A stretch of DNA of 64,000 bases from Frondihabitans sp. PAMC 28766 (GTDB lineage Bacteria > Actinomycetota > Actinomycetes > Actinomycetales > Microbacteriaceae): the NCBI RefSeq assembly GCF_001577365.1, contig NZ_CP014513.1, positions 2,728,001 to 2,792,000 on the forward strand, given 5' to 3'. The notes beneath the pieces were generated by a model. It made no database searches. It saw only the letters and a program-made list of their open reading frames with translations, and was not told the DNA's origin. Position 1 is the first letter of the stretch. Every line of letters starts with the position of its first letter. A program made the translations under genes and the position numbers. Positions 24,492-58,646 of the stretch are shown here, in pieces.

Positions 24492-24564
24492 TGGGCGATA
24501 CCGGACTCGAACCGATGACCTCTTCCGTGTGAAGGAAGCGCGCTACCAACTGCGCCAATCGCCC
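24492..24564 (-). tRNA. tRNA-Val (anticodon CAC)
   Basis: A 73-nt cloverleaf. The acceptor stem GGGCGAT pairs with ATCGCCC and the discriminator is A. The anticodon stem CTTCC/GGAAG encloses the loop TTCACAC, giving anticodon CAC for GUG codons. The T-arm contains GGTTCGAGTCC. The 3' CCA is not encoded. On its strand an ATACTA complement (TAGTAT) about 14 bases upstream could be the -10. Confidence 0.95.
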
Positions 24565-24644
24565 TGGGGACTCGTCGATACTAATGGATGATGCGGCTCG
24601 ACTCCTACTCAGCCACCCCGGCAAGACACGAAGCAATCTCAGTT

Positions 24645-24673
24645 TGTGCCTCAGGGAGAACATCGGATAGAGT
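24645..24673 (+). promoter_or_regulatory. candidate promoter of the Gly-Cys-Val tRNA operon
   Basis: TTGTGC (-35-like) and TAGAGT (-10-like) are separated by 17 bases and lie about 43 bases before the first tRNA. Confidence 0.4.
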
Positions 24674-24715
24674 TCCTGAGGTCGCAGAGATGCGGAAGAA
24701 ACAACAGCAACAAAT

Positions 24716-24787
24716 GCGGATGTGGCGCAGTGGTAGCGCATCACCTTGCCAAGGTGAGGGTCGCGAGTTCGAATCTCGTCATCCGCT
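24716..24787 (+). tRNA. tRNA-Gly (anticodon GCC)
   Basis: A 72-nt cloverleaf with acceptor pairing GCGGATG/CATCCGC and discriminator T. The anticodon stem TCACC/GGTGA encloses TTGCCAA, giving GCC for GGC/GGU codons. The T-arm contains GAGTTCGAATCTC. CCA is not encoded. It is the first of three tandem tRNAs. Confidence 0.96.
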
Positions 24788-24811
24788 CGAGTGAAAGCTC
24801 ACCCCGATCAG

Positions 24812-24885
24812 GGTGGGGTGGCCGAGAGGCGAGGCACCGGCCTGCAAAGCCGTTCACGCGGGTTCAAATCCCGTCCCCACCTCCA
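24812..24885 (+). tRNA. tRNA-Cys (anticodon GCA), CCA encoded
   Basis: Acceptor pairing GGTGGGG/CCCCACC, discriminator T and an encoded CCA. The anticodon loop CTGCAAA gives GCA for UGC/UGU codons. The T-arm contains GGGTTCAAATCCC. It lies 24 bases after tRNA-Gly. Confidence 0.95.
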
Positions 24886-24923
24886 GCACTGGTTTCGACC
24901 GGCACTGACAATTTCATACTCAT

Positions 24924-24998
24924 GAGCGATTGGCGCAGCGGTAGCGCGCTTCCCTGACACGGAAGAGGTCACTGGTTCGATCCCAGTATCGCTCACCA
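24924..24998 (+). tRNA. tRNA-Val (anticodon GAC), CCA encoded
   Basis: Acceptor pairing GAGCGAT/ATCGCTC, discriminator A, encoded CCA. The anticodon stem CTTCC/GGAAG encloses CTGACAC, giving GAC for GUC/GUU codons. The T-arm contains TGGTTCGATCCCA. Its D- and anticodon arms are nearly identical to those of tRNA-Val(CAC) on the other strand, so the two probably arose by duplication. Confidence 0.96.
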
Positions 24999-52267: not shown

Positions 52268-54388
52268 TCAGGTGTCGATGCGCTCGCGCGTGAGGCCCTC
52301 GGCGCCGTCGATGATGAAGTCCTTACGGGGCGCGACGTCATTGCCCATCAACAGCTCGAACACTCGGCCCGCGTTTTCGGCGTCCTCGACCTTGACGCGG
52401 CGCAGGAGGCGACCCGAGCGGTCCATCGTCGTGGTGGCCAACTGCTCGGCATCCATCTCGCCGAGGCCCTTGTAGCGCTGGATCGGATCCTGGTAGCGCT
52501 TGTTCGATTTGCGAAGACCGGCGAGCACCGATTGGAGCTCCTGCTCGGAGTACGTGTAGATCGTCTCGTTCGGCTTCGACCCCGGGTTCATCACGACGAC
52601 GCGGTGCAGCGGCGGCACGGCGGCGAACACTCGACCGGCCTCGATCATGGGCCGCATGTAGCGGAAGAACAGCGTCAGCAGCAGCGTGCGGATGTGTGCA
52701 CCGTCGACGTCGGCGTCGCTCATGACGATGACCTTGCCGTACCGCGCCTGCGACAGGTCGAACGACCGCCCCGAGCCCGCGCCGATCACCTGGATGATCG
52801 CGGCGCACTCGAGGTTCGAGAGCATGTCGCTCACCGACGCCTTCTGCACGTTGAGGATCTTGCCGCGGATCGGCAGCAGCGCCTGGTACTCGCTCGAGCG
52901 AGCCGCGCGCGCCGTTCCGAGCGCCGAGTCGCCCTCGACGATGAAGAGCTCGGTGGAGTCGACGTCGTTCGAGCGGCAGTCGACCAGCTTCGCCGGCAGC
53001 GACGACGACTCGAGAGCGTTCTTGCGCCGCTGGGTCTCTTTGTGGGCGCGAGCGGCGATACGCGACTTCATCTCGGCGACGATCTTGTCGAGCACGGCGG
53101 CCGACTGCGTCTTGTCGTCGCGCTTGGGCGAGGCGTAGATCGCCTTCATCGCATCGGCGACGGCGTTCGAGACGATGGCGCGCACGGCCGGGGTGCCGAG
53201 CACCTCCTTCGTCTGGCCCTCGAACTGCGGCTCGGGCAGACGCACGGTCAACACGGCGGTGAGACCGGCCATGATGTCGTCTTTCTCGAGCTTGTCGTTA
53301 CCGACCTTGAGGCGACGGGCGTTCGCGTCGACCTGCGCCTTCAAGAACTTGAGCAGGCCCGCGTCGAATCCGGCCTGATGCGACCCGCCCTTGGGTGTGG
53401 CGATGATGTTGACGAAGCTGCGGGTGACCGTCTCGTAGCCCTCGCCCCAGCGCAGCGCGATGTCGACCTCGCACTCGCGCTTCACATCGGTCGACACCAT
53501 GTGGCCCTTGTCGTCGAGCACGGGCACGGTCTCGGTGTAGTGCCCGGTGCCCTGCAGACGCCAGGTGTCGGTGACGGGGCGGTCGGGTGCGAGGTGGTCG
53601 ACGAACTCCGAGATGCCGCCCTCGTATTCGAAGACGCTTTCGACCGGCCGGCCGTCCGGGGTGCCCGCCAGTGTGACGGGCCGCTCGTCGCGGATCCTGA
53701 TGGTCAGACCCGGCACGAGAAAGGCGGTCTGCTGCGCGCGCGAGATCAGGTCGTCGGTCGAGAAGGCGGCACCCTTGGTGAAGATCTGCCGGTCGGCCCA
53801 GTAGCGCACGCGCGTGCCGGTCTTGCCTTTGGCGACCTTGCCCGTGACCTTCAGGACGCTGCCGTTCTCGAACGGAGAGAAGGGCGCGTCAGGATGCGGG
53901 TCGCTCGCATCGACATCGGCGAAGGTGCCGGGCTCGCCGCGGTGGAACGACATCGAATGAGTCTTCCCGCCTCGGTCGACCGACACGTCGAGGCGCTCGG
54001 AGAGAGCGTTGACGACGCTCGCGCCGACACCGTGGAGGCCTCCCGACGCCGCGTACGAGCCGCCGCCGAACTTGCCGCCGGCGTGCAGCTTCGTGAAGAC
54101 GACCTCGACACCGGTGAGGCCGGTCTTCGGCTCGATGTCGACCGGGATGCCGCGGGCGGTGTCGCGCACCTCGACGCTGTCGTCGGGGTGCAGGATCACG
54201 TCGATGCTGGCTCCGAACCCGCCCAGGGCCTCGTCGACGGCGTTGTCGATGATCTCCCAGAGGCAGTGCATCAGACCGCGCGAGTCGGTCGAGCCGATGT
54301 ACATGCCGGGGCGCTTCCGAACCGCCTCGAGACCTTCGAGCACGGAGAGGTGCCGCGCGCTGTACGTGTCGGTCGAGGTCGTGGTCAC
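52268..54388 (-). CDS. parE: DNA topoisomerase IV subunit B (GyrB/ParE family)
   Basis: A 706-aa ATPase subunit. The GHKL ATP-binding motifs are EIIDNAVDEALGG near 45-57 and GGLHGVG at 116-122; the TOPRIM domain has EGDSALG and DADVDGAHI; the C-terminus carries RYKGLGEMDAEQL. The GTG start has GAAGGAGA upstream; an open stretch of 58 codons further upstream is not conserved. Together with parC it forms topoisomerase IV; proximity to sigA is usual in actinobacteria. Confidence 0.93.
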   Translation of the reverse strand: MTTTSTDTYSARHLSVLEGLEAVRKRPGMYIGSTDSRGLMHCLWEIIDNAVDEALGGFGASIDVILHPDDSVEVRDTARGIPVDIEPKTGLTGVEVVFTKLHAGGKFGGGSYAASGGLHGVGASVVNALSERLDVSVDRGGKTHSMSFHRGEPGTFADVDASDPHPDAPFSPFENGSVLKVTGKVAKGKTGTRVRYWADRQIFTKGAAFSTDDLISRAQQTAFLVPGLTIRIRDERPVTLAGTPDGRPVESVFEYEGGISEFVDHLAPDRPVTDTWRLQGTGHYTETVPVLDDKGHMVSTDVKRECEVDIALRWGEGYETVTRSFVNIIATPKGGSHQAGFDAGLLKFLKAQVDANARRLKVGNDKLEKDDIMAGLTAVLTVRLPEPQFEGQTKEVLGTPAVRAIVSNAVADAMKAIYASPKRDDKTQSAAVLDKIVAEMKSRIAARAHKETQRRKNALESSSLPAKLVDCRSNDVDSTELFIVEGDSALGTARAARSSEYQALLPIRGKILNVQKASVSDMLSNLECAAIIQVIGAGSGRSFDLSQARYGKVIVMSDADVDGAHIRTLLLTLFFRYMRPMIEAGRVFAAVPPLHRVVVMNPGSKPNETIYTYSEQELQSVLAGLRKSNKRYQDPIQRYKGLGEMDAEQLATTTMDRSGRLLRRVKVEDAENAGRVFELLMGNDVAPRKDFIIDGAEGLTRERIDT

Positions 54389-54629
54389 GGGTCTCCTTCG
54401 GTGCTGCCGCCTGCTGCCCCGGGAATGCACGAGCGCACGCGTGCGTTCAAGAATACGGGCGCCACCGCAACCTTCGGCGCCCGACACCCCTGCGTGACTC
54501 GCCCCTGCTCTGGGGGTGAACGAATCTCTTCGCGAACAGCGAAATCCAGCGAAATGTCGCACGATCGAAACAGCGCTGTGTTTTGATGAGTGTCACGTAC
54601 CCGCGCACCACCGTTTGGAGGAGCATCCA

Positions 54630-54857
54630 ATGACTCAGATGGCCACCGACCACAACGCCGTCGACGAGCTCGGCTCCCGGTACCAGTTGTCTGCAGCAGA
54701 CCGCTGCGACTCCTGCGGAGCCCAGGCATACATCCGAGCCACCATGGCCTCGGGTGAACTCCTCTTCTGCGCCCACCACGGCGCGAAGTTCAAGGAGAAG
54801 CTGCAGCCCAACGCCATCGAATGGCTGGACGAGACTGCCAAGCTCAGCGCCCACTAA
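54630..54857 (+). CDS. small zinc-binding protein (DUF7455-like)
   Basis: A 75-aa protein with C26-x2-C29 (CDSCG) and a C47-x2-H50 pair in FCAHHG, giving a probable single zinc site. Small proteins of this kind next to the principal sigma factor gene are conserved in actinobacteria; the function is unknown. The ATG is preceded by GGAGGAG. The 241-base region upstream, shared with parE, is less GC-rich and contains three GCGAA words (54532, 54539, 54549) of unknown meaning. Confidence 0.88.
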   Translation: MTQMATDHNAVDELGSRYQLSAADRCDSCGAQAYIRATMASGELLFCAHHGAKFKEKLQPNAIEWLDETAKLSAH

Positions 54858-54946: not shown

Positions 54947-55702
54947 CTACATGGCCTTGAAGACGTGCTCCAGGTTGGCGGCGATGACCTTGCGCGCCTT
55001 CGCGGCGAACTCGTCGAGCTTCGCGTGTGTGTCGTTGGTCGTGAACTCGGCGCCGTTGCGTGCGAGAGCCGCGGCCAGGACACGATCGGTCAGCGCGGGG
55101 TTGAGCGGCAGAGCCGGGCCCTTGAGCTGCGTGCCGAACGACGCGCCGCGCACGATGCCCTCCGTGCCGTCTCCGTTGCCCCCGCCGCTCGTGACGCGGC
55201 CGAACGGCCGAGCGCCCGCCGCGAGCTCGAACCGGGTGGCGTGGTCTTCGAACCCCAATAGCGTGAGGTCCGCCTCGCCGTAGGTGGTCTCGACCTGGAA
55301 GTAGTTAGCGCGGCGCTTGGCTCCGCGGTGCGCAGCAGCATCGAAGAAGCCGAGCCCCACGAGGTCGGCGCCTTCGCCCGAGATGCCGTTCGAGAGGATC
55401 TCCATGCCGCCGCCGATCGCGACGACGGGCACGCCGGCGTCGGCCCAGTCGGACAACAGCGGGGCGAACCGCAGGATGTCAGGGTGCAGCGCCCGCAGCG
55501 TCGACAGCGGCCCGGATCCGACCACGACGACATCGGCCGAGGCGGGCAGCGCGTCACCGACGCGGTGCTCGGCCACGGTCACGGTGACATTGGCTCGACG
55601 CGCACGCTCGGCCAGCGTGACGACGTTGCCGCCGTCACCCGAGACGCCGAGCTCGGCGGGGTACAGCTGCAGGATCGACAGGGATGGTGCGGTGGAGGCC
55701 AT
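54947..55702 (-). CDS. GatD-like amidotransferase fold protein without catalytic residues
   Basis: A 251-aa protein that aligns along its length with the glutaminase GatD, partner of MurT in amidation of lipid II D-glutamate: ILQLYPAELGVSGDGGNVVTL at the start, then LVGLGFFDAAAHR, LLGFEDHATRF and GTQLKGPALPLNP. The nucleophile elbow, CGG in GatD, reads AIGGGMEIL here (Gly97), and the catalytic His position in GTxLHGP is Lys194. The protein has no cysteine at all, so it cannot be a Cys-type glutaminase. The start overlaps the MurT-like stop (ATGA). A structural or amino-acid-binding role is inferred. Confidence 0.88.
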   Translation of the reverse strand: MASTAPSLSILQLYPAELGVSGDGGNVVTLAERARRANVTVTVAEHRVGDALPASADVVVVGSGPLSTLRALHPDILRFAPLLSDWADAGVPVVAIGGGMEILSNGISGEGADLVGLGFFDAAAHRGAKRRANYFQVETTYGEADLTLLGFEDHATRFELAAGARPFGRVTSGGGNGDGTEGIVRGASFGTQLKGPALPLNPALTDRVLAAALARNGAEFTTNDTHAKLDEFAAKARKVIAANLEHVFKAM

Positions 55703-57009
55703 CAGGCGCGCTTCTCCAGGTCGGGATAACCGAGCATCTTGCGCGCGATCATCATCTGCTCGTAGTTGACGATGAAGTTCTTCGTCTTGGTGGAGGGGGC
55801 AGGCAGCGCCTTCATCAGCTCGATGGCCTTCTCGATGTCGGGCTCGACAGTCGTGATCGGGATGCCGGCGTGTTCGAGTCGCAGGGCGATCTGCCAGGCC
55901 TTCGCCCCCGAGACCACGTCGACGTGGTCGAGTGACGAGAAGTCGACGTCGTAGATCCACGAGATGTCGGGCGTGCCCTCATCGATCGCAAGCAGCACCT
56001 GCTCAGGCACGCTCTGCAGTGCGTCGAGGTTCAGCTGAAGGCTCGCGGCGTTCTTGAACATGACGAACTCGGCCTCGTCAGAGCCGATCTTGAGTCGCTC
56101 GCCGCGCCCGTAGGCGGGCTTCATCGCGGCGAACGCCCCCACGGCTCGGTCGAGGCGGAACTCGGAGCCGAGCGAGACGCGAGCCGTCTGGATCGCGGCG
56201 GCGGCGTCGACCGCGTAATGCAGACCGCGGGCGGGAAGGCGCACGTCGAGGCTCTCGCCCGACGATCCGGCAGTGCCGCCGAGAGCGATCGTGGCACCGT
56301 CGGCGGTGAGGGCAGTCACCTCGGAGTCGGCCGAGAAGTCGGCGGCGGCGACGCCGTCTTCGGTACGGCCGAAGTCGCTGGCGTTCTGCAGGCCGTGCGG
56401 GGCCGCCGTGACGAGCGCGGCGGAGGCTCCGAAGCGGGTGGTCACCTGCGTCACCGGGGTGGACAGCGCAGTCTGCGATTCGTAGCGACCCAGGTAGTCG
56501 TCGTCGCGGTTGGTGACGACATTGGTCGTGGCAGTCGCAGCCGTGTCGGTCATCATGTCGGCGACGCGCGAGGTCTCGTAGAAGCGGTAGAGCTGGTCGA
56601 CCTGCACGTTGAGCATGAGGACGGTCGACGGGTGCAGGTGCCCGGAGAGCTCGACGGCGAACGCCTCGTCGACCTCGAGCACGCCCACGTCGGCCTTGAG
56701 CTTGCCGAACAGGCTGACTTCGGAGAGCAGTGCCGAGGCGATGCCCTGTGGGAGGTTCGCACCCGTCGGGTTCGTGAAGACCCGGAGGCCGTGTGACCGC
56801 ATGATGTCGGACAGCATGTGCGTCGTCGTCGACTTGCCGTTCGAGCCGAGCACGAAGAGCACGCCGCGGTCGAACTGCTGCGTGACGTCGGTGAGGAACG
56901 TCGGCAGAAGCTTCAGGACGAGGTAGCCGGGGTACGCCGACCCACCCCCTCGGGCTCTTGCGAGAACGCGGGCGAGACGCCCGAGGAGGATGGGGAAGAA
57001 GTACTTCAA
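55702..57009 (-). CDS. MurT-like Mur ligase family protein lacking the zinc ribbon
   Basis: A 435-aa Mur-ligase fold protein. The P-loop GSNGKST is at 55-61, followed by LEVDEAFAVEL, NVQVDQLYRFYE, and the C-terminal SWIYDVDFS element shared with MurT. MurT amidates the alpha-carboxyl of D-Glu in lipid II using ammonia from GatD. This copy contains no cysteine, hence no Cys4 zinc ribbon, and the NFFRDQMDRFGE-type motif is altered. The start is TTG with AAGGA five bases upstream. ATP-dependent activation of the D-Glu alpha-carboxyl is still plausible. Confidence 0.9.
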   Translation of the reverse strand: MKYFFPILLGRLARVLARARGGGSAYPGYLVLKLLPTFLTDVTQQFDRGVLFVLGSNGKSTTTHMLSDIMRSHGLRVFTNPTGANLPQGIASALLSEVSLFGKLKADVGVLEVDEAFAVELSGHLHPSTVLMLNVQVDQLYRFYETSRVADMMTDTAATATTNVVTNRDDDYLGRYESQTALSTPVTQVTTRFGASAALVTAAPHGLQNASDFGRTEDGVAAADFSADSEVTALTADGATIALGGTAGSSGESLDVRLPARGLHYAVDAAAAIQTARVSLGSEFRLDRAVGAFAAMKPAYGRGERLKIGSDEAEFVMFKNAASLQLNLDALQSVPEQVLLAIDEGTPDISWIYDVDFSSLDHVDVVSGAKAWQIALRLEHAGIPITTVEPDIEKAIELMKALPAPSTKTKNFIVNYEQMMIARKMLGYPDLEKRA

Positions 57010-57054: not shown

Positions 57055-58365
57055 TTACTCCAGATAGTCGCGAAGCGACTGCGACCGCGACGGGTGGCGC
57101 AGCTTGGCCATCGTCTTCGACTCGATCTGGCGGATGCGCTCACGCGTCACACCGAAGGTGTCGCCGATCTGGTCGAGCGTCTTCGGCATGCCGTCGCCGA
57201 GACCGAAGCGCATGCGGATCACGCCTGCCTCGCGCTCGGAGAGGCTGTCGAGCAGCGATTCGAGCTGCTTCTGCAGCATCGTGAAGCCGACCGCGTCGGC
57301 CGGGACGACCGCCTCGGTGTCTTCGATCAGGTCGCCGAACTCGCTGTCGCCGTCTTCACCCAGCGGGGTGTGAAGAGAGATGGGCTCGCGGCCGTACTTC
57401 TGCACCTCGACGACCTTCTCGGGCGTCATGTCGAGCTCGCGCGAGAGCTCTTCGGGGGTGGGCTCGCGACCGAGGTCTTGCAGCATCTGGCGCTGCACGC
57501 GGGCCAGCTTGTTGATGACCTCGACCATGTGCACCGGGATGCGGATGGTGCGTGCCTGATCGGCCATGGCACGGGTGATCGCCTGACGGATCCACCACGT
57601 GGCGTAGGTCGAGAACTTGAAGCCCTTGGTGTAGTCGAACTTCTCGACTGCACGGATCAGACCCAGGTTGCCCTCTTGGATGAGGTCGAGGAACTGCATG
57701 CCGCGGCCCGTGTAGCGCTTGGCGAGGCTGACGACGAGGCGGAGGTTCGCGCCCAGCAGGTGGCTCTTGGCACGCTGTCCGTCGCGCGAGACCCACCGCA
57801 GTTCGCGCTCGAGCTCTTTGGAGAGCCCGGTCGAGTTCTGCAGCTTGTCTTCGGCGAACAGGCCCGCCTCGATGCGCATGGCGAGCTCGACCTCTTCGGC
57901 CGCGTTGAGCAGCGCGACCTTTCCGATCTGCTTGAGGTAGTCCTTGACCGGGTCGGCGGTGGCGCCGGTGATGGTGGAGGAGTAGACCGGCACCTCGTCG
58001 TCGTCGTCCTGCGAGATGACGAGGGCGCCCGTGGGCAGCACCTCGTCTGCCGCCTTGACGGCCTCGCCCTCGGAGTCGTCGGTGTCGGTCGCCTCGGCGT
58101 CGGGGGTCTCGACGGCGTCGTCGGTCTCGACTTCGGCGGTGTCGGCCACGGCGTCGTCGTCTTCGTCGTCAGCGGAGGCCTTCGCCGACTTCTTGGCCTT
58201 GGCGGGCGACGCCTTGGCCGTGCCGGCGGCGGCCTTTTTGGCCGGCGCTGCCTTGGCAGGAGCCTTCTTAGCGGGCGCCTTCTTGACGGCCGTCGCCGTG
58301 GCGGCGGTCTCGTCGACGGTGTCGTCGTTCGTCGTGAGGTCTGCGGTCTTGGTGCGAGTAGCCAT
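57055..58365 (-). CDS. sigA: principal RNA polymerase sigma factor (RpoD/HrdB/SigA)
   Basis: A 436-aa sigma-70 factor. The first 125 residues are a Lys/Ala- then Asp/Glu-rich extension. Region 1.2 begins [11 protein letters not shown] near 135; region 2 has [20 protein letters not shown] and [12 protein letters not shown]; region 4 has the [20 protein letters not shown] helix-turn-helix and ends [15 protein letters not shown]. It directs transcription of housekeeping genes. The ATG is preceded by AAAGGTG. The MurT-like gene follows after 45 bases, so it may be transcribed with sigA. Confidence 0.98.
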
Positions 58366-58646
58366 GGGGTGCACCTTTCACTCGGGGCTGTCGCGCCTCG
58401 GGTGAGGAGGCGCCTGTCTGCCCTCGGCCAACCTGTCCAAGGGCATAACTAGGACCCATGTCAAGCCCCCGGCGTTTCACCAGGGACAGGAACGGGTCCG
58501 TACGTAATTATTGCACGAGCCGGGCCGACCTGTTTACAAGACCTGTCGAATCCTGGTATTGACGGTCGGATCGGGGCACAACACTCAGGAAGCAGAACCG
58601 AGACGGCCCCCTGTCTATTCCGCTCGGTCGCTACTCCGCTCGGTCG
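58366..58646 (-). promoter_or_regulatory. sigA upstream region
   Basis: 281 bases without a gene. On the sigA strand an AT-rich patch reads TTGTAAACAGG and, further down, GCAATAATTACG; the TTGTAA and AATAAT hexamers are 21 bases apart, too far for a standard promoter. A perfect TTGACA (58464-58459) lacks a well-placed -10. At least one sigA promoter is expected here, but I cannot fix it. Confidence 0.35.

Follow-up and report, generated by a model that had tools for sequence, protein, structure and literature searches.

What becomes of a lipid II isoglutaminyl synthase when its glutaminase subunit has lost the catalytic residues, and which reaction does the remaining ligase carry out? The question is raised by two adjoining genes, one MurT-like and one GatD-like, in a stretch of 64,000 nucleotides from Frondihabitans sp. 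PAMC 28766 (contig NZ_CP014513.1, positions 2,728,001 to 2,792,000 of the forward strand; this whole stretch is called the window). The host belongs to the Microbacteriaceae, referred to below as the family, of which group B peptidoglycan is typical. An earlier note on this DNA had taken the pair for a glutaminase-dead amidotransferase and possibly a ligase for the bridge amino acid of that wall type. The pair is almost certainly glutaminase-dead. On the reading of the sequences that we prefer, with reservations, it would be an amino-acid ligase that builds the group B cross-bridge. Its place between sigA and a parE-type gene is taken in other members of the family by an unrelated CofE-like protein, and the exchange of modules happened several times.

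A MurT-GatD pair without the glutaminase nucleophile

In its canonical form, MurT-GatD is the enzyme that amidates the D-Glu residue in lipid II (PMC3266927, PMC6113224, PMC6085368). The pair in the window and the two positions of interest are as follows.

55702..57009, minus strand: MurT-like ligase of type I, 435 amino acids (Pfam, NCBIfam and Protein Data Bank (PDB) matches; residue alignment)
54947..55702, minus strand: GatD-like partner, 251 amino acids, with Gly97 and Lys194 (Pfam GATase_3, alignment to 6gs2, AlphaFold2 model)
55412..55414, minus strand: codon of Gly97, the position of the glutaminase nucleophile (alignment to Staphylococcus aureus GatD)
55121..55123, minus strand: codon of Lys194, the position of the catalytic His (alignment to S. 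aureus GatD)

The MurT-like gene begins with TTG, 45 bases past the sigA stop. The two genes overlap in TGATG, with one base in common, and are not coupled by ATGA as had been noted; re-reading of the sequence bore out the coordinates and residue positions of both. Against Pfam, the MurT-like protein scores 43.5 bits for MurT_C and 31.2 bits for Mur_ligase_M, and its partner 50 bits for GATase_3, all above the cut-offs. The NCBIfam equivalogs are not reached, with 93-103 bits against a cut-off of 800 for MurT, and 67 against 400 and 78 against 450 bits for GatD. By sequence, the PDB relatives of the two proteins are MurT and GatD chains only; those of the ligase are the MurT chains of 6fqb, 7q8e, 6gs2 and 9sq9. 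Among named proteins, those of Frondihabitans are the nearest. The AlphaFold2 model of the GatD-like protein (predicted local distance difference test, pLDDT, 89.5) has 6gs2_A as its top PDB match, with a template modeling (TM) score of 0.87. The host genome (G000, 100% complete) contains one MurT_C match, and thus no second, intact murT-gatD of the kind that the earlier note had considered.

Alignment with S. aureus GatD places Gly97 at the nucleophile Cys94 and Lys194 at His189, in agreement with that note, so that the window protein is without the His of the HGP motif. In the ligase, Asp348 corresponds to Asp349 of S. aureus MurT, and the P-loop is present as GSNGKST at residues 55-61. In S. 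aureus, the GatD mutations C94S or C94G abolish lipid II amidation; MurT Asp349 completes the triad, and D349N is inactive or severely reduced (PMC6113224, PMC6085368).

All sorted relatives, 66 of type I and 10 of type II, were aligned with 31 canonical pairs from the 44 canonical loci fetched. Type I has a MurT that lacks both the zinc ribbon and the DNAAD loop and keeps the ATP-site residues, and type II has a MurT with the zinc ribbon. The nucleophile column of the 66 type I GatD-like proteins contains Gly in 55, Ala in 9, Thr in 1 and Ser in 1, and Cys in none. Cys is found in all 31 aligned canonical GatD proteins, and in 43 of the 43 canonical loci that are readable (one more, L044, ends early). 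The catalytic His is kept in 43/66 type I and 31/31 canonical proteins and in none of the 10 type II proteins, where it is Ile or Leu. The triad Asp of MurT is present in 66/66 type I and 31/31 canonical proteins and in 0/10 of type II (Asn in 9, Met in 1). The P-loop Lys (Lys59), Asn85, Glu112 and Glu115 are invariant wherever a row is readable at these positions (65/65 type I, 10/10 type II, 31/31 canonical). Trp351 is replaced by Tyr in 26 of the 66 type I MurT proteins, and the DNAAD loop, which is thought to lie near the stem peptide in S. aureus MurT, is absent from the type I rows shown.

Both translations from the window are free of Cys, as had been claimed, but this is no conserved trait, since Cys occurs at other positions in 14 of 47 named GatD-like proteins. 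The Cys4 zinc ribbon is indeed missing from the MurT-like protein. It is also missing from canonical Cys- and His-containing pairs of the family and the order (e.g. L012, L007, L013 and L037), so its loss is not tied to that of the glutaminase and was discarded as a mark of it. The loss of the nucleophile is a trait of the clade; the total lack of Cys and the lack of the ribbon are incidental. The type I proteins are not visibly decaying. Comparison of the window with two congeners gives a ratio of nonsynonymous to synonymous differences (pN/pS) of 0.38-0.39 in GatD and 0.24-0.29 in MurT; for the two congeners compared with each other, the values are 0.32 and 0.24, respectively.

Distribution of the two MurT groups in the family

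A Pfam MurT_C search covered 100 family genomes, and a wider profile search covered 199. Matches to MurT_C occur in 69 of the 100 and fall into two score groups. The high-score group has a GatD with Cys and His in 14/14 family loci (L006-L019); homologues with both residues, which the earlier note had named as evidence against its proposal, do exist in other family members. The low-score group contains the Cys-less clade; in four odd low-score loci (L020-L023) a single-sequence search found no clear GatD. The A1 profile, built from 12 Cys-less MurT proteins, reaches 440 bits or more, the threshold for a type I call, in 123 of the 199 genomes. CofE-like proteins occur in 28 others, so that a role of the pair as the general enzyme of group B walls is not supported.

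A strongly reduced genome of 0.93 Mb (L100, G015) keeps the pair between sigA and parE, which indicates that its function survives genome reduction. Another family, f27 (L252, L253), has a zinc-ribbon MurT and a GatD with Asp at the nucleophile position and the His kept, apparently an independent loss of the glutaminase.

One module in the slot between sigA and parE

The surroundings of the pair in the window consist of the following features.

57055..58374, minus strand: sigA, for the principal sigma factor, flanking the slot upstream (the same neighbour in the fetched carriers)
52268..54562, minus strand: topoisomerase subunit of the parE type, flanking the slot downstream (neighbour in the fetched loci)
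54516..54857, plus strand: open frame with a small DUF7455 protein, between the slot and parE (Pfam PF24254, 79 bits)

Elsewhere in the window, four tRNA genes are clustered at 24492-24995 and are its sole Rfam matches at gathering score.

In 16/16 fetched type I carriers the MurT gene lies between sigA and parE. The GatD-like gene was recognized in 15 of these by single-sequence search and in the remaining one (L101) by profile. The canonical pair lies away from this slot in 4/4 canonical carriers whose surroundings were fetched.

The content of the slot was read in 80 named loci, which are the best 80 for one Microbacterium ParE in a single genome-contig scan; deep branches are missing from the set because of this sampling. 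Modules at each locus were sorted by profile. There are 45 type I, 2 type II and 27 CofE-like loci and 6 that are cut by a contig end, and none is double or empty: all 74 readable loci, whose titles mostly name Microbacteriaceae genera, contain a single module. In an extended set of 123 loci, comprising the window and further loci, the counts are 66 type I, 10 type II, 27 CofE-like, 14 empty and 6 cut, and again none is double. The 14 empty loci come from 14 genomes, of which two are nearly identical; these genomes were selected for scoring with neither module.

Type I occupies the slot in, for example, Agromyces, Curtobacterium, Cryobacterium, Leifsonia, Herbiconiux, Agreia, Subtercola, Plantibacter, Okibacterium, Frigoribacterium and Mycetocola, and in Microbacterium aurantiacum, M. 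aoyamense and M. resistens. The CofE-like protein occupies it, for example, in M. testaceum, M. maritypicum, M. schleiferi, M. yannicii, M. jejuense and M. murale, and in Salinibacterium and Homoserinibacter. The ten type II loci have a zinc-ribbon MurT and a GatD with His in the nucleophile column and Ile or Leu in the His column; judged by these residues, type II is a second glutaminase-dead form of MurT-GatD in the same slot.

Two further kinds of gene accompany the modules. A split alanine-racemase-like pair, in which a 237-residue protein bears the C-domain and its companion has about 350 residues, is found at L143:6794-8541(+), L106:6124-7907(+) and 35 other slot loci; it is present in 20/66 type I, 16/27 CofE-like and 0/10 type II loci. 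It is possibly a racemase of a D-diamino acid, or else a housekeeping alanine racemase. An ATP-grasp protein (PF14397, sugar-transfer-type; L143:5709-6722(-), L183:7497-8495(-)) occurs in 26/27 CofE-like, 6/10 type II and 1/66 type I loci, and perhaps acts as a second ligase beside the CofE-like gene. ATP-grasp frames had also been called at the loci of M. aoyamense and M. resistens; given the count of 1/66 by profile search, they are taken as an antisense artefact.

Two loci stand apart. In genome G049, apparent genes of an amino-acid ABC (ATP-binding cassette) transporter take the place of the ligase in the slot (L232:3522-5935). A record titled Planococcus sp. APC 4015 (L130) contains a Microbacterium-type locus with a ParE of 91% identity, and its title is probably wrong.

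Exclusion and exchange of the modules

CofE-like proteins, called at 360 bits or more, occur in 28 of the 199 family genomes, and none of these is among the 123 with a MurT at 440 bits or more; under independence, about 17 genomes should have both. No MurT match better than E 1e-10 is found in the 28 genomes. A genome-wide check of 31 named genomes, chosen by slot content, gives the same picture: the 14 with a CofE-like slot (378-440 bits) have no MurT elsewhere in the genome, and in the 17 of type I (475-691 bits) no CofE-like match exceeds 25 bits.

A quick parE tree was made from 117 rows and has some long branches; parsimony on it requires 17 changes for the three modules and 21 with the empty slot as a state, and the shuffled mean is 46.4. 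The CofE-like module alone accounts for 13 changes, of which the well-supported branches force at least 8. The empty loci are found in one deep group in nine of 14 cases, and the rest are scattered. Exchange of the modules has thus happened several times.

Within Microbacterium no simple split of the modules by the diamino acid of the wall is supported. A split of MurT and CofE carriers by L-Lys or D-Orn was rejected, because the carriers do not sort. The pair is carried by M. aurantiacum, presumably a Lys type, as well as by M. resistens and M. esteraromaticum, which we take to be Orn types. The CofE-like carriers include M. testaceum, M. maritypicum, M. murale and a metagenome-assembled genome named M. 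enclense, a species reported to have a Lys wall (PMC10757982).

The CofE-like protein and its fused relatives

The CofE-like protein has about 232 residues and matches Pfam F420_ligase with 49.3 and 28.9 bits in two copies (cut-off 25). The L181 copy has no NCBIfam match, and a search of the PDB by sequence gave none for the protein. Its AlphaFold2 model has a pLDDT of 72, falling below 50 for most of residues 93-141. The best fold match is 2phn_A (Foldseek E 4.5e-10, TM about 0.5), a comparison that is limited by the weak middle of the model, and the PDB fold matches with E < 0.001 are Archaeoglobus fulgidus F420 γ-glutamyl ligases only. Other matches of the CofE-like profile, taken as ordinary F420 enzymes, score about 20-27 bits.

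A survey of 248 genomes of the order shows CofE relatives above 100 bits outside the family in 23 genomes, all from the families f2, f4 and f7. Their scores are 147-206 bits, and the open frames that contain them have 809-1016 residues. In the 15 that were read (L276-L290), a C-terminal domain with 144-202 bits to the A3 profile lies behind an AsnB-like part. Pfam was run on four of these fusions; it reports AsnB-type domains in three and none in L290, and F420_ligase in none of the four. The glutaminase part begins with Met-Cys-Gly in 10/15 fusions, and the N-terminal Cys is absent in 5/15. In the class, four genomes of f24, none of which appears in the MurT_C results, have a different CofE-like kind with 135-148 bits.

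Fusion and canonical MurT are mutually exclusive. Together, f2, f4 and f7 comprise 61 genomes, of which 23 have only the fusion, 33 only canonical MurT, 5 neither and none both (one further genome of these families outside the listing could add one to those with neither). Both would be expected in 12.4 genomes (Fisher p 2.6e-12, kinship among genomes ignored). The exclusion points to the carboxyl that canonical MurT uses. When a ligase excludes canonical MurT in one group and a dead derivative of it in another, the simplest explanation is that the same carboxyl is involved, and the pair and the CofE-like ligases probably compete for the α-carboxyl of D-Glu. Some actinobacteria presumably carry Gly or glycine-amide on D-Glu, a substituent that an AsnB-CofE fusion could make. 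Gly has been found in two walls of Brachybacterium (PMC6090031), a possible lead for f7.

Function of the pair

The pair ought not to be classed as a lipid II isoglutaminyl synthase, because its nucleophile is missing; it probably works like the ligase half of that enzyme. It would derive from MurT-GatD by death of the glutaminase. The MurT-like protein would bind ATP and, by analogy with its family, activate the D-Glu α-carboxyl of the lipid-linked stem peptide as an acyl phosphate; that the pair is a ligase acting on this carboxyl is quite probable. The acceptor amine would be an amino acid in place of the ammonia from glutamine, which is likely, though less so, and it would most likely be the first residue of the group B bridge, a diamino acid or Gly. 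The GatD-like protein is unable to hydrolyse glutamine by the known mechanism, and its fold may have been kept as a structural or acceptor-binding subunit. The substrate, the acceptor amine and the role in the bridge are what we infer here; the lost nucleophile, the kept ATP-site residues, the purifying constraint, the slot and the exchange are observations. In the wall of Clavibacter michiganensis, of type B2gamma, D-diaminobutyric acid (D-DAB) links D-Glu to D-Ala (PMC9603630), which we count as support for the use of this carboxyl in group B, and Microbacterium walls contain D-Orn, L-Lys or diaminobutyric acid (PMC10757982).

Of the earlier proposal, the death of the glutaminase thus stands, and the idea of an amino-acid ligase has strong indirect support, from the exchange at the same locus with a CofE-like protein, whose family ligates amino acids and has no glutaminase, and from the exclusion of canonical MurT by CofE relatives in three other families. 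A more general scheme, for which we consider the chances evenly divided, is that MurT and the unrelated CofE-like protein, each freed from a glutaminase, compete to place the first bridge amino acid on the D-Glu α-carboxyl in group B walls and have been swapped many times at a single slot. Outside the family, the CofE-AsnB fusion would cap the carboxyl, and as a rule a genome would have one ligase system for it.

Several observations weigh against the bridge ligase. At least two genomes, G054 and G066, have a live MurT-GatD in addition to the dead one, and by score G364, G395, G399 and G437 look the same. The slot is empty in 14 family loci, several of these genomes having a live canonical pair elsewhere; if these genomes have group B walls, such walls can be built without the slot module. 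The ATP-grasp protein goes with the CofE-like module and not with type I, so the modules may not be exact equivalents. The parE tree is not a species tree, as parE lies next to the slot and may have moved together with it. The CofE equivalog gives the CofE-like protein only 31.6 bits, the cut-off being 180.65. The Lys before Asn320 in the KNP loop of MurT is Gln in 29/66 type I proteins, while the MurT Asp is kept. Finally, middling CofE-like genes occur in G053 and G363 (about 153 bits) and in G384 (127.5 bits), where the gene lies elsewhere than the type I MurT of the same genome (L258). The slot of G053 contains the racemase pair only, and we had regarded it as an exception without a ligase; this was dropped, as a dead MurT-GatD lies beside the 153-bit gene elsewhere in that genome (L237:6607-9556(-); L236).

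A further difficulty comes from S. aureus, whose complex uses free ammonia in place of glutamine at pH 8.5, with GatD still needed (PMC6085368). The type I MurT could likewise amidate the D-Glu α-carboxyl with free ammonium, the dead GatD-like protein only holding it in shape, and both the triad Asp of MurT and the GatD fold have been kept. We regard this as unlikely. The pair is exchanged with a CofE-like protein, characterized members of whose family join amino acids. Type II sits in the same slot without any of the three triad residues, the MurT Asp included, in 10/10 cases, and a known wall of the family, that of Clavibacter, cross-links through the very carboxyl that would be amidated (PMC9603630).

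A capping ligase, which adds a single amino acid such as Gly to the α-carboxyl and leaves the bridge to another enzyme, is improbable to a similar degree. The fusion of CofE relatives outside the family to an AsnB-type amidotransferase would suit a Gly or glycine-amide substituent, which we assume to exist. Within the family, a racemase-like pair in some of the slots fits a D-diamino acid instead, and in the Clavibacter wall the bridge itself occupies this carboxyl (PMC9603630). There is still less to recommend an amide formed outside peptidoglycan, for example on a cofactor or a polymer. CofE proper extends F420, and Mur-type folds are also found in CapB, CphA and folylpolyglutamate synthase (PMC11915815); against this stand the homology to MurT_C and GatD, the finding that canonical MurT and CofE relatives exclude each other in f2, f4 and f7, and the scores of only about 20-27 bits of presumed ordinary F420 enzymes with the same profile. 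That the pair is a decaying relic of the canonical one, as the lost nucleophile and the genomes without any pair might suggest, is hardly credible in view of 66 sorted copies, ATP-site residues intact in 65/65 readable rows and a pN/pS of 0.24-0.39.

If the bridge-ligase reading is right, two candidate enzyme systems can be named for the attachment of the group B bridge, and the step becomes testable with purified proteins. It would also mean that one cell-wall enzyme has repeatedly been displaced by an unrelated one at a single locus.

Comparison with known systems

In the open-licence PMC literature, no paper joins MurT, GatD and the Microbacteriaceae, and no report of the enzyme that attaches the group B bridge residue is among the top matches in those papers, subscription journals being outside that scope. 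The closest known system is the lipid II isoglutaminyl synthase MurT-GatD of S. aureus (6gs2, 7q8e), Streptococcus pneumoniae (6fqb) and S. pyogenes (9sq9). The window pair differs from it in having no Cys nucleophile, a variable His and no DNAAD loop, in its place after sigA and in falling short of the equivalog cut-offs (103 of 800 and 78 of 450 bits). MurT relatives are also described from pseudomurein archaea whose genomes have no GatD homologue (PMC11915815), so that, unlike the ligase studied here, the archaeal proteins have no partner; CofE and F420 do not occur in the main text of that paper.

Outside the family, AsnB-type amidotransferases make up the N-terminal portion of the AsnB-CofE fusions, but they do not belong to the slot modules. 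The F420-0:γ-glutamyl ligase CofE (2phn, 7uld) belongs to the same fold family as the CofE-like protein, which nevertheless scores far below the CofE equivalog cut-off, is unrelated to MurT and sits in the MurT slot. The names given in databases, lipid II isoglutaminyl synthase for the pair and coenzyme F420-0:L-glutamate ligase for the CofE-like protein, are probably both wrong.

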